From: Promethearchaeota archaeon
GTDB lineage: Archaea > Asgardarchaeota > Lokiarchaeia > Sigynarchaeales > SOKP01
DNA: 13,490 nt
Direction of reading: 5' to 3'
NCBI GenBank assembly: GCA_016839655.1
Contig: JAEOTW010000074.1
Coordinates: forward strand, 1 to 13,490
The notes beneath the pieces were generated by a model. That model searched no databases, was not told the DNA's origin, and saw only the letters and a list, made by a program, of their open reading frames with translations. This document shows, piece after piece, positions 3,635 to 12,994 of this stretch. Made by a program: the position numbers and the translations under genes. Each line of letters starts with the position of its first letter. Within the stretch, counting starts at the first letter, position 1.

Positions 3635-4126
3635 ATGAGTTCTTTCTCTGCTGTTCGACCAAAAAATTTTCGTGAAAAGGTGTTTTTTCGCAAATTAAGA
3701 ACACAAGTAGACGGAAATGCTAAAGTTGAACATGGGTTAACACAAATTAGAGGCATAGGTAGAAGATTCTCACAAGCTATTGTTAGAGTAGCAGGAATAG
3801 ATCCAAATCTTAGAATTGGAGCAATTGCCGAAAAAGATCTAAACAGAATTGAAGAGATAATTATAAATCCTGTTGAAAATGGCGTTCCAAATTGGATGGT
3901 GAATCGACCAAAAGACTTACGAACTGGTGAAGATCTTCATATAATTGGAAATAAATTGGAGATCACCGTTAGGAGGGATGTCGACAGAATGAAAAAGATC
4001 AAGAGTTATAAAGGTGTTCGACATCACTTAAGATTAAAAGTACGTGGTCAAAGAACAAAAAGTACTGGTCGTCATGGTTTAGTCGTCGGTGTTATGAGAA
4101 GAAAAAAAGGTCAACAAGTAAAATAA
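3635..4126 (+). CDS. rps13: Small ribosomal subunit protein uS13
   Basis: Archaeal/eukaryal-type uS13 of 163 residues, in the 30S head, where it contacts the P-site tRNA and the large subunit through a bridge. Visible: the helix-two-turns-helix region LTQIRGIGRRFSQAIVRVAGI (about residues 34-54), the DLRTGEDLHIIG segment, and the basic C-terminal tail (SYKGVRHHLRLKVRGQRTKSTGRHG). The archaeal form has an N-terminal extension, present here. It is first in an rps13-rps4 pair; the 131-nt AT-rich upstream gap presumably holds the promoter, but I see no clear TATA box and no strong Shine-Dalgarno. Confidence 0.97.
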   Translation: MSSFSAVRPKNFREKVFFRKLRTQVDGNAKVEHGLTQIRGIGRRFSQAIVRVAGIDPNLRIGAIAEKDLNRIEEIIINPVENGVPNWMVNRPKDLRTGEDLHIIGNKLEITVRRDVDRMKKIKSYKGVRHHLRLKVRGQRTKSTGRHGLVVGVMRRKKGQQVK

Positions 4127-4771: not shown

Positions 4772-5569
4772 TTAGAATTTTCTTCTCTTTTTTAGATAAA
4801 ATCCAATAGATACAATAGAAACAATTGTACAAATAATCAATGAACTATATCCAGGAATTGTAGAACCACATACCTCTATCAGATTATCACCAATATTATA
4901 GTCTAGATCCCATGAATAACCTATCGCATCAATGTAATTAACTCCGGTAGATAAAGATTGACTAGAAAATCGGAAATGATCCATTTCAACTGGAGTACCA
5001 TAAAAACTACAATTTCCTTTAGATACACCATCAATAAATATTTCATATTCACCTTTAGTACAATTGAAATCAAATCTAATATGAATCCAAGAATCCACTG
5101 AATAAGTTGTGGGTATAGGTAGATCTTTCACTAATCCATCAAAATAGCTAAATTCACCATTATCACCCAAAGCAACGTTTAAATAATCAGTTGAGCCACC
5201 CCCATCTGAGAGACGGATGCTGAATCCATGATCTGTCTGTTTAGCTCTTACCCAGAATTCAATTGTTCCTACAATTGTTGGACTAATATCCTGTTCCATA
5301 ATTGTATACAATGTAGTTGTATCGTTGAATTCGATAATTTTATGATGAGCTCCCTCTGATGCAATAACATTAATTGTACCACCAGTTTCATCTACAGTCC
5401 ATTCGTCTGGATCACTTCCTAAATCATCATTGGTAAAACTGTATGTCCCGGGATAAGATCCGCACCCAGAAGTCGCATGAACATTAGAGATAAAGAGGAA
5501 GATTAAGAATAAAAAACAGAAGAAAGAAAAAACTTTATTAATTGAGTTCCTTTTTTCCATTGAATTCAT
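4772..5569 (-). CDS. Secreted/anchored cell-surface protein, LamG-like beta-sandwich
   Basis: A 265-residue protein with an N-terminal signal peptide (basic MNSMEKRNSINK then a hydrophobic stretch to about residue 32, VHATSG cleavage region). A single beta-rich ectodomain follows, with features of a LamG/concanavalin-like fold (TIEFWVRAKQT, DSWIHIRFDFN, YEIFIDGVSKG). At the C-terminus IPGY leads into one transmembrane helix and ends KKRRKF. That last arrangement resembles the C-terminal sorting/anchor signals common in Asgard and other archaeal surface proteins. Binding partner unknown. It is encoded against the ribosomal genes, between rps4 and rps11, where no gene normally sits. A second in-frame Met at residue 4 is an alternative start. 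Function beyond surface location is an inference. Confidence 0.75.
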   Translation of the reverse strand: MNSMEKRNSINKVFSFFCFLFLIFLFISNVHATSGCGSYPGTYSFTNDDLGSDPDEWTVDETGGTINVIASEGAHHKIIEFNDTTTLYTIMEQDISPTIVGTIEFWVRAKQTDHGFSIRLSDGGGSTDYLNVALGDNGEFSYFDGLVKDLPIPTTYSVDSWIHIRFDFNCTKGEYEIFIDGVSKGNCSFYGTPVEMDHFRFSSQSLSTGVNYIDAIGYSWDLDYNIGDNLIEVCGSTIPGYSSLIICTIVSIVSIGFYLKKRRKF

Positions 5570-5791: not shown

Positions 5792-6250
5792 ATGAGTAAA
5801 CGTGAAGAAATGAAATGGGCTATTGTCCATATTTTCAGCTCATATAACAACACAATAGTAACAGCAACGGATTTAAGTGGTGCCGAGACGTTTGCAAAAT
5901 GTAGTGGCGGTATGGTAGTCAAATCTATTACAGTTTCTGTGGTGTAGACTCAAGCCGACCGTGACGAAAGTAACCCGTATGCGGCTATATGAGGATTCGG
6001 CTCGACTCCTCAAGTCAGGCAATGCGGGTTCAGAGTTGCAAACGATCTTCGTGATAAAGGGGTTAGAGGCATCCATATAAAAGTCAGAGCTCCCGGTGGA
6101 AATAAATCCCAAACTCCCGGTCCAGGAGCACAAGCTTGTATTCGAGCTTTGGCTCGCGCCGGATTAAAAGTAGGAAGAATTGAAGAAGTAACTCCTAAAT
6201 CGCACGACCACTGTAGGCGCAAGGGCGGGCATAGAGGGAGACGTGTTTGA
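5792..6250 (+). CDS. rps11: Small ribosomal subunit protein uS11, split by two 30-nt BHB introns
   Basis: Three exons, 5792-5922, 5953-5988 and 6019-6250, join to a 132-residue uS11, the 30S platform protein that binds 16S rRNA near the mRNA exit. Exon 1 encodes [20 protein letters not shown] to GGMVVK; exon 2 [11 protein letters not shown]; exon 3 [50 protein letters not shown] and the HRGRRV end. This matches archaeal/eukaryal uS11 in order and length once the inserts are removed. Unspliced, the frame meets TAG at 5945 and TGA at 5990. Start: ATG with AAAGGT about 10 nt upstream. Oddities: the usual PIPHDG near the C-terminus reads PKSHDH, and GC content rises from about one third in exon 1 to about one half from intron 1 onward. 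rpoD, the usual next gene, is absent. Confidence 0.93.
5923..5952 (+). other. BHB mini-intron 1 in rps11 (30 nt)
   Basis: The insert falls between GGMVVK and ADRDES of uS11 and contains an in-frame TAG. Fold: exon AGTC (5917-5920) pairs perfectly with intron GACT (5947-5950) as the 4-bp central helix. Bulge 1 is AA|A (5921-5923) and bulge 2 is CA|A (5951-5953). Intron arms 5924-5933 and 5937-5946 pair with one mismatch (three U·G pairs) around a TTT loop. The outer exon helix is short, TGGT (5913-5916) with GCCG (5954-5957). Cutting after the second base of each bulge leaves AA+A, the Lys codon expected. From the protein alone the junction is ambiguous by 2 nt; the fold selects this position. 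Phase 2. Confidence 0.88.
5989..6018 (+). other. BHB mini-intron 2 in rps11 (30 nt)
   Basis: The insert falls between PYAA and [10 protein letters not shown] and carries an in-frame TGA. Fold: exon GGCT (5983-5986) pairs with intron AGTC (6013-6016) as the central helix (one G·U). Bulge 1 is AT|A (5987-5989) and bulge 2 is AG|G (6017-6019). Intron arms 5990-5999 and 6003-6012 pair with one mismatch around a GCT loop. Exons form an outer helix: CCCGTAT (5974-5980) with ATGCGGG (6022-6028... read from 6022), plus GC/GC if one A is bulged. Cutting after the second base of each bulge gives AT+G, restoring the Met of the conserved PYAAM. Same architecture as intron 1; phase 2. Confidence 0.9.
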
Positions 6251-11107: not shown

Positions 11108-12994
11108 GTGGAAAAACAAAATCAATTTGAAAAATTTAAGGAATTCATTGAGCAGTTTGATAAATATATAGAAACTAAGGATTTTTTAGAAATACATAAA
11201 TTTTTTCCGTTAATTGATAGTTTTGAAGAAAAATTTTTAAATGGATATAATAAACGGAAAATAGAGGGTGCTTTTTATACAAATAGAAAGATATCAAATT
11301 TTATCTTTACAGAAACAGTTATTTGCTTAATTAATAAAAAATTAAATCAGAATAATCAGAAAACAAAAAAGGTACACAACCTAAATGAAATCCTTAAATA
11401 TGATCAAACTCTCAAGCATAAGATAATACAAATACTATTAAACATTACAATTTGTGATCCAGCGTGTGGAGCAGGTGGTTTTCTCTTAAGTGCCGCGGAA
11501 ATCATATATGATACAATTCTCAAACTAAACTATCACTCATCAAACACTCAAATTAAAAATCAAATACTAGCCAACTTATACGGATTTGACATTAATCAAT
11601 ATGCAATTAAATTATGCTTTTTAAACCTTCTAAAATGGTATAGTAACGAGAGAATAACAAGAATGGAAAGTATAATATCGATCCTAAAATCTAATTTACA
11701 AATACAAAATAGTATAACCACTCCAAAATTTCCAAAATTTGATATAATTATTGGCAATCCTCCTTATGGAAATATATTAAATCAAAGAGAAAAAGAAATT
11801 CTTAAAAAAGAAAATATTTTTTATAAAGATGTTTACTGCACTTTTTTGATAAAGGCTTTAAAATGGAGCAATGAATTCATCGGTTTCTTAGTTCCAAAAA
11901 GTTTCCTTTTAAGGCAAGGTTATATTAAATTTAGGAATAATTTCCTTTCTAAAGCAAATGTTATTCAAATTTATGATATTGGTTCTAAAATGTTCAAAAA
12001 TGCTACAAACGAAGTTCAAATAATAATATATGAAAACAAAAAAAATCATGTTAAACAAGATTTAACTATTTATGATTATCCTAGAACTAAGAATATTACC
12101 TACACAAATCAAGACTTTGATTCCTTAAAGGTTTGTTTCAACTTAGATTGTCCATTATCTCTAAAATCTAAAAAATTATACGTCTATACTTTTAATAAGA
12201 GATGCCCATACTGTAATTCAAATACATATGAATTAAATCGGATTAGAATTAAACCAAAAGAGAGAATTTATCAAATAATTAAAAAAATAGAAAAATCCGG
12301 AGATTTAAATTATCTAAATCCTTTAGATTATCCAAAAATGATTAGAGGCGAAGAAGAGATTGGTTTAAATGAAGTTAAAAGAAAATTAAGAAAAGATATA
12401 ACAGGTTCTTGCTTTTTTATAGGTGCTAGAAACGATTTCAATTATTATATCCTCAAAAAAAATAAATCTTTTAATATTGAAGAATTAGATCCTAAAATCT
12501 TGAAAGGTAATAATTATGAATACTATAAGAACCCAAAATTGTTAATAAAACATAATAATATTATCCCTGAGGCAATCTATACTGAAGATGATGTTTGCTT
12601 TACATCGTCAATTTACTCTTTGCTACATGATGATACTGGTGAATTGAAATATTTATGCGCTACTTTTAATTCAATCCTAATTCAATTTTATTGTATTTAC
12701 GCGATTAATAATCAGAAAGATACAACCATTAATTTAAATCAATACATGATCAGACACTTACCTATTATTAAACCTGACAAAATAATTAAAAATAATATCA
12801 TCAAGAACGTGGATCTAATTGGTTCTTTACTGCTAAAGGATAAAGGAATTTCTCTAAATAAATATTATCAGGTATTAAGAGAAATCGATAATATTGTGTT
12901 TAAATTATATTCAATATCAACAAGTGAGAAAAACCTGATTATCTCAAATATAAAAAATCAGATTAAACATTTTGGAACTATTTATGGGAAATAA
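11108..12994 (+). CDS. N6-adenine DNA methyltransferase (Eco57I/TaqI-like)
   Basis: 628 residues. It transfers methyl from S-adenosylmethionine to adenine N6 in DNA. Motif I, DPACGAGGF, is at residues 117-125; motif IV, the catalytic NPPY, at 217-220, preceded by FDIIIG; about 255-300 continues the Eco57I fold (FLVPKSFLLRQGYIKFRNNF). This order is that of gamma-class enzymes with a C-terminal target-recognition region, here about 320-628. Inside the latter C343-x4-C348-x17-C366-x2-C369 looks like a zinc ribbon. With only about 110 residues before motif I there is no room for an N-terminal nuclease as in type IIG enzymes, and no nuclease gene is seen beside it, so it may be solitary. Start GTG at 11108; a TAG two codons upstream excludes a longer frame. 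Confidence 0.88.
   Translation: MEKQNQFEKFKEFIEQFDKYIETKDFLEIHKFFPLIDSFEEKFLNGYNKRKIEGAFYTNRKISNFIFTETVICLINKKLNQNNQKTKKVHNLNEILKYDQTLKHKIIQILLNITICDPACGAGGFLLSAAEIIYDTILKLNYHSSNTQIKNQILANLYGFDINQYAIKLCFLNLLKWYSNERITRMESIISILKSNLQIQNSITTPKFPKFDIIIGNPPYGNILNQREKEILKKENIFYKDVYCTFLIKALKWSNEFIGFLVPKSFLLRQGYIKFRNNFLSKANVIQIYDIGSKMFKNATNEVQIIIYENKKNHVKQDLTIYDYPRTKNITYTNQDFDSLKVCFNLDCPLSLKSKKLYVYTFNKRCPYCNSNTYELNRIRIKPKERIYQIIKKIEKSGDLNYLNPLDYPKMIRGEEEIGLNEVKRKLRKDITGSCFFIGARNDFNYYILKKNKSFNIEELDPKILKGNNYEYYKNPKLLIKHNNIIPEAIYTEDDVCFTSSIYSLLHDDTGELKYLCATFNSILIQFYCIYAINNQKDTTINLNQYMIRHLPIIKPDKIIKNNIIKNVDLIGSLLLKDKGISLNKYYQVLREIDNIVFKLYSISTSEKNLIISNIKNQIKHFGTIYGK

Follow-up and report, generated by a model that had tools for sequence, protein, structure and literature searches.

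Analysis of the window (the whole stretch of DNA under study, 13,490 nt) revealed that rps11, the gene for ribosomal protein uS11, is interrupted by two inserts of 30 nt. With a probability of roughly 0.92, these inserts are bulge-helix-bulge (BHB) introns of the pre-mRNA, excised by the tRNA-splicing endonuclease EndA and sealed by the ligase RtcB. In these Lokiarchaeia, tRNA-splicing enzymes probably cut and rejoin mRNA. The original prediction of BHB introns in rps11 is supported by restoration of the reading frame, by a BHB at both junctions, by diverged inserts at the same codon in relatives, by paired changes in the hairpins of those inserts and by the presence of EndA and RtcB genes in related genomes.

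Organization of rps11 in the window

The rps11 gene runs on the plus strand from ATG at 5792 to the stop codon TGA at 6248-6250. Both inserts were found exactly where they had been placed, each with a single in-frame stop codon (TAG in 5923-5952 and TGA in 5989-6018), and the unspliced frame terminates at the TAG inside the first insert. The predicted product of 132 residues after removal of both inserts was obtained: the joined segments 5792-5922, 5953-5988 and 6019-6250 amount to 399 nt, and the translated uS11 covers positions 2-110 of the Pfam profile Ribosomal_S11 (E 1.4e-39). The truncated product of 51 residues matches the same profile with E 6.2e-10, and unspliced mRNA would yield a truncated peptide only. 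Judged from the sequence, cuts in the bulges would rejoin the exons into a functional product, since they restore the Lys44 and Met56 codons that the protein had been said to need and give the full Ribosomal_S11 match. Apart from the two inserts, no lesion was found in the 396 coding bases of rps11. The gene order rps13-rps4-rps11 is the usual one among relatives, and both rps13 and rps4 give uninterrupted family matches.

Two other features of the window were recorded. A minus-strand open reading frame (4772-5569, 265 aa) lies between rps4 and rps11, is unrelated to both neighbours and has a weak laminin-G/lectin-like match under the Pfam cut-off. On the plus strand, 11108-12994 encodes a methylase of 628 aa of the Eco57I/TaqI-like restriction-modification kind. 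No tRNA gene that could serve for intron comparison turned up when the window and 12 loci were scanned.

Bulge-helix-bulge structure of the inserts

The inserts were folded with their flanks by RNAfold (5908-5964 for intron 1 and 5970-6030 for intron 2), a check that had been proposed with the prediction, and in both a central helix was found between the predicted cuts (Table 1; a caret marks the cut).

Table 1. Coordinates of the rps11 exons, the two mini-introns and their BHB elements in the window
Feature	Position	Strand	Details
rps11 exon 1	5792..5922	+	ATG to two bases of Lys44; spliced translation, Pfam Ribosomal_S11
Mini-intron 1	5923..5952	+	Putative; 30 nt, phase 2, Lys44 codon, in-frame TAG; fold, permutation
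BHB 1 central helix	5917..5920 with 5947-5950	+	AGTC with GACT; RNAfold
BHB 1 5' bulge	5921..5923	+	AA^A, predicted cut after 5922
BHB 1 3' bulge	5951..5953	+	CA^A, predicted cut after 5952
Intron 1 inner hairpin	5926..5944	+	8 bp, 3-nt loop; RNAfold
rps11 exon 2	5953..5988	+	36 nt, Lys44 to two bases of Met56; spliced translation
Mini-intron 2	5989..6018	+	Putative; 30 nt, phase 2, Met56 codon, in-frame TGA; fold, permutation
BHB 2 central helix	5983..5986 with 6013-6016	+	GGCT with AGTC; RNAfold
BHB 2 5' bulge	5987..5989	+	AT^A, predicted cut after 5988
BHB 2 3' bulge	6017..6019	+	AG^G, predicted cut after 6018; 2 nt in minimum free energy (MFE) fold, 3 nt in canonical model
rps11 exon 3	6019..6250	+	Met56 to stop TGA at 6248-6250; spliced translation

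In the archaeal BHB, a 4-bp helix separates two bulges, one on each strand, at the exon-intron boundaries. Intron 1 shows this arrangement in the MFE fold together with the alignment, and its outer helix comprises 8 bp with a 1-nt bulge. On the 5' side of its MFE fold 5921-5925 are unpaired (AAA and two further bases), facing two unpaired bases. Intron 2 shows the arrangement in a slightly relaxed form, the 3' bulge being shorter in the MFE fold because 6019-6020 pair outward. The motif had been described in advance as a 4-bp helix with bulges of 3 nt, each cut following the second bulge base. This description fits the aligned model of intron 1; for intron 2 the helix was recovered and the 3-nt bulge on the 3' side was not. 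Intron 1 can be placed in three sliding positions with identical protein, among which the BHB selects AA^A, and intron 2 has a single possible placement. Group I and group II introns need a catalytic core of some hundred nucleotides or more, and inserts of 30-31 nt are too small for such a core; this candidate was rejected.

Comparison with dinucleotide shuffles gave z -2.2 for the fold of intron 1 (5 of 200 shuffles as good), z -4.0 for intron 2 (0 of 200) and z -2.75 for the whole of 5900-6045 (2 of 200). With 30-nt spacing, the thresholds passed by intron 1 were reached at eight of 13,400 plus-strand positions of the window, 5922 included, and looser thresholds admitting intron 2 as well were reached at 20. 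Shuffling of the insert alone, with fixed flanks, gave P = 0.0001 for each of the two window introns. For all six inserts found at the DNA level, four of them in the relatives described below, the permutation values were 0.0001, 0.0001, 0.0001, 0.00125, 0.00005 and 0.00095, i.e. at most 0.00125 in every case; Fisher's combination of these values (2e-16) needs caution because the BHB score was devised after the folds had been seen.

Inserts in rps11 and rps12 of relatives

Comparison of rps11 among relatives, also proposed with the prediction, revealed an insert at the Met56 site in two further Lokiarchaeia genomes and its absence from close relatives. Recurrence within Lokiarchaeia, at several rps11 sites and also in rps12, had not been anticipated in the prediction. 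The inserts in locus L009 (genome G001; 4010-4039) and in locus L077 (minus strand) are both 30 nt long, interrupt the Met56 codon in the same phase as intron 2 of the window and have one possible placement each. Pairwise identity among the three Met56 inserts is low (17, 12 and 14 of 30 bases). The central helix is nonetheless paired at four of four positions in each insert (12/12 cells), as are 24 of 27 cells at the nine inner positions, and four of the nine inner pairs are maintained across the three inserts by changes on both sides. It is thus structure rather than sequence that is conserved among the Met56 inserts, as in BHB introns.

Inserts were also found at other sites. Locus L015 (genome G003) has a BHB insert of 31 nt at Lys125, which shifts the frame and whose cuts give the family codon. 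In rps12 of G039 a 30-nt insert lies at the conserved LPG^DGAL, and cutting at its BHB (AG^U and AG^A) yields the Asp codon; this was the one internal stop in the uS12 search of the class, in which 76 of 83 genomes matched. A length of 4 nt suits the 5' bulges of L009, L077 and L015 best, and outer pairs are few in L009 and L077 (2/6). Several inserts are relaxed motifs on account of these 2-nt or 4-nt bulges and few outer pairs. Exon complementarity gave mixed results on co-adaptation of the exons: it is clearly unusual only at Lys44, where none of 41 intronless genes scored as low, compared with 3, 8 and 3 of 42 at Met56 and 10 of 38 at Lys125. Reuse of the Met56 site may reflect conserved codons on its two sides, which in some intronless genes are able to pair with each other.

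Short hairpin inserts with in-frame stops, five of six preserving the frame, would also be expected if ribosomes hopped over them and the RNA were kept whole. Translational bypassing of this kind occurs in gene 60 of phage T4 and at the byp elements of yeast mitochondria, which are small hairpins inserted into coding genes at numerous positions and flanked by matching take-off and landing codons. Short hairpin inserts in coding genes are common to the byp elements and the present set, whereas matching take-off and landing codons are absent here. The triplets at the six inserts are AAA/CAA, ATA/AGG, ATA/ACG, ATA/AAG, AAA/TCA and GTA/GAT, so that none of the six match; AAA/CAA differs by one base, as does GGA/AGA in another register of the rps12 insert. 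Bypassing from ATA would moreover give Ile in place of the Met56 of the family, and it would leave a BHB geometry with cuts at these very positions to coincidence. Bypassing was rejected on the codon count and is considered very improbable.

Protein-level fragments

The N-terminus of uS11 ending at codon 56 was searched against 5.8 billion proteins. Among 19 N-terminal fragments of uS11, nine end at Met56, three at Lys44 and seven at neither. The nine Met56 fragments (P0001, P0003, P0004, P0005, P0007, P0008, P0009, P0011 and P0016, the last two being near-copies) run through PYAAI and stop 0 to 6 residues further; the Ile replacing the usual Met is as expected from reading into an insert. The Lys44 fragments are P0010, which is the window's own, P0014 and P0015. 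Several uS11 fragments are annotated simply as small subunit ribosomal protein S11. In P0009 and P0011/P0016, stretches of roughly ten additional residues, free of stops, lie near residues 14 and 21, suggesting putative further insert sites; the genes of these three proteins possibly carry two introns each, as in the window.

Such stretches bear on a reading in which the inserts are translated, the stops being recoded or read through to give a uS11 with 10-residue insertions. In-frame, stop-free inserts of ten residues seem present in P0009, P0011 and P0016, and five of the six DNA-level inserts are divisible by three. On the other hand, all three stop codons are represented among the inserts, and the 31-nt insert of L015 breaks the frame. 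Translation would also turn Met56 into Ile and set ten variable residues within a conserved stretch. Read-through was rejected on the 31-nt insert and the mixed stop codons, and its probability is close to nil.

For uS12, seven of the 120 matches listed (of 3383 hits) fell short of 138 residues, six of them departing from the family exactly at LPG^D. The first 60 residues of uS13, used as control, gave ten fragments with mostly scattered ends. This control is not clean, since two of the ten (P0141 and P0144) share a departure point at WMV^N, a possible candidate insert site in rps13 at the protein level.

Splicing machinery in Lokiarchaeia

In the proposed mechanism, the rps11 transcript would fold at each insert into an outer helix, a 4-bp central helix with a small bulge on either strand, and an inner hairpin. 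EndA would cut inside both bulges, and RtcB would join the exons so that Lys44, Met56 and a single open frame are restored; RtcB would probably circularise the 30-nt intron as well. Splicing itself, that is cleavage and ligation, and the role of RtcB as the ligase are what we infer from the sequence.

Two EndA paralogues were present in all six Lokiarchaeia genomes searched. In both G001 and G031, one EndA matches the catalytic chain of A. pernix (3p1z_B, E 6.5e-37) and retains its Tyr, His and Lys; this His, mutated in 3ajv, is lacking from the second, which matches archaeal EndA. By sequence, the pair in these two genomes is consistent with the two paralogues of an (alpha-beta)2-type EndA. 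Two-subunit EndA is described as having broad specificity that includes relaxed BHB (PMC6379350), and the relaxed motifs found here fit that description. RtcB was searched for in the genomes of relatives and found in three of four; it was not found in the intron-bearing G031, a possibly incomplete metagenome-assembled genome (MAG).

Genome survey and evolution

A scan of genome contigs with rps4 gave 45 loci, mostly from Lokiarchaeota or Lokiarchaeia MAGs. In the class of G001, rps11 was matched in 66 of 83 genomes. Internal stops were found in two of these (G001 and G031) and an insert in the C-terminal region in one (G003); runs of N make two unreadable (G043 and G044), two are split at contig ends (G014 and G068) and the remaining 59 are listed without internal stop. 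At the level of the phylum (227 genomes, 194 matched), internal stops occurred only in G001 and G031 among the matches listed. A search of the 17 class genomes lacking an rps11 match, with the C-terminal 74 residues as query, yielded weak hits in G079 only, the best of them (E 0.125) being a 16-residue piece where a contig begins; these 17 genomes are uninformative. Among the 83 class genomes no internal stop was found in the uL2 C-domain (74 matched), the RNA polymerase A' domain (75 matched), uS7 (76 matched) or uL14 (78 matched). In G006:C111, G029:C88 and G075:C31, about 1.5 kb of in-frame, intein-like sequence interrupts RNA polymerase A' domain 2.

Some rps11 loci are irregular in other ways. 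In the chromosome-scale Loki assemblies L078 (G044) and L079 (G043), runs of N lie over the 5' part of rps11; the gene is far away from rps4 in G044. A split or trans-spliced rps11 in these two genomes, where only the C-terminal part matched, was rejected as the runs of N span the missing part. In L011 (2360-3487) the rps11 match extends over 22 residues (to NNTI) and gives way to unrelated sequence for the rest of the contig; no further rps11 match occurs in G004, the genome of L011, and a large insert, a rearrangement or a chimera are the candidates.

The same runs of N indicate that the locus can assemble badly, as would be needed if the inserts were assembly errors or if a decaying or misassembled rps11 stood beside a functional copy elsewhere. 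The coding bases of rps11 and the adjoining rps4 and rps13 are, however, intact in the window. Same-site inserts of different sequence occur in two genomes with one rps11 each (G001, G003 and G031 have a single match apiece), the fragments come from several databases and contigs, and an assembly error would not produce a BHB with paired changes. Decay or misassembly is therefore highly improbable, and chance or assembly error is an unlikely source of the inserts.

In the uS13+uS4 tree of 39 rows, the five intron-bearing rows require five changes, of which the starred branches alone force three. The insert is absent from L014, L017 and L034, clade mates of L015, and from L071, the sister of L077. 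The window groups with L003 (no insert) and L009 (Met56) at modest support (84/91). Clade mates without inserts indicate gain or loss between close relatives, with one site shared by separated clades. This pattern may reflect repeated gain, transfer, or the frequent loss of old introns.

The inserts could also be BHB substrates that serve chiefly in regulation, the amount of uS11 being limited by EndA cleavage followed by inefficient ligation. Against this, uS11 is required in quantity and the cuts restore the frame exactly, and a conserved regulatory role is unlikely because relatives manage without the inserts. We consider a mainly regulatory role improbable. A wider reading of the BHB introns, which we put forward tentatively and at slightly less than even odds, is that mini-introns of about 30 nt form a mobile or recurrently arising class in essential ribosomal-protein genes of Lokiarchaeia, gained and lost between close relatives and tying ribosome production to tRNA splicing. 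The class would have preferred codons (Lys44, Met56, Lys125 and perhaps two more in rps11; G^D in rps12), and its members could spread by reverse splicing and recombination.

Comparison with known systems and implications

The available part of one source names cbf5 as the sole confirmed archaeal protein gene with a BHB intron by 2009, others being merely predicted (PMC2738675), and the available part of another still gives it as the sole confirmed case in a coding region as of 2020 (PMC7714728). The cbf5 intron occurs in Desulfurococcales and Sulfolobales (Thermoproteota) and its splicing was shown experimentally, whereas the present introns belong to ribosomal-protein genes of an Asgard lineage and their splicing is inferred from sequence. 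They also differ from cbf5 in their size of 30-31 nt, in two introns in one gene, in the use of several sites and in recurrence at the same site in separate clades. In Haloferax volcanii, EndA cuts at BHB sites in the 5' UTR of the HVO_1309 mRNA, as described in PMC7714728; this is likewise an mRNA with BHB sites, but unlike here no coding sequence is interrupted. According to PMC11291895, three Atabeyarchaeia/Freyarchaeia genomes carry introns in 92-95% of their tRNA genes; archaeal tRNA introns, like those described here, have canonical or relaxed motifs and may be multiple within a gene. In contrast to tRNA introns, the host here is an mRNA whose reading frame must be restored. No report of BHB introns in ribosomal-protein genes or Asgard mRNAs was found in open-access full texts, a scope that excludes subscription papers and preprints. 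BHB introns in mRNA were already known; what is new is their occurrence in ribosomal-protein genes and in an Asgard lineage, their minimal size, two introns per gene and the recurrent sites.

The truncation or omission of essential genes by gene callers in Lokiarchaeia genomes is a warning. With introns present in some genomes and absent from close relatives, the origin of small introns and the way they spread can be put to the test. A recurrent Asgard set would make mRNA splicing by proteins alone a repeated habit in that lineage. The class of mini-introns, if true, would constitute a spliceosome-independent mRNA intron system in an archaeal lineage close to the eukaryotes.
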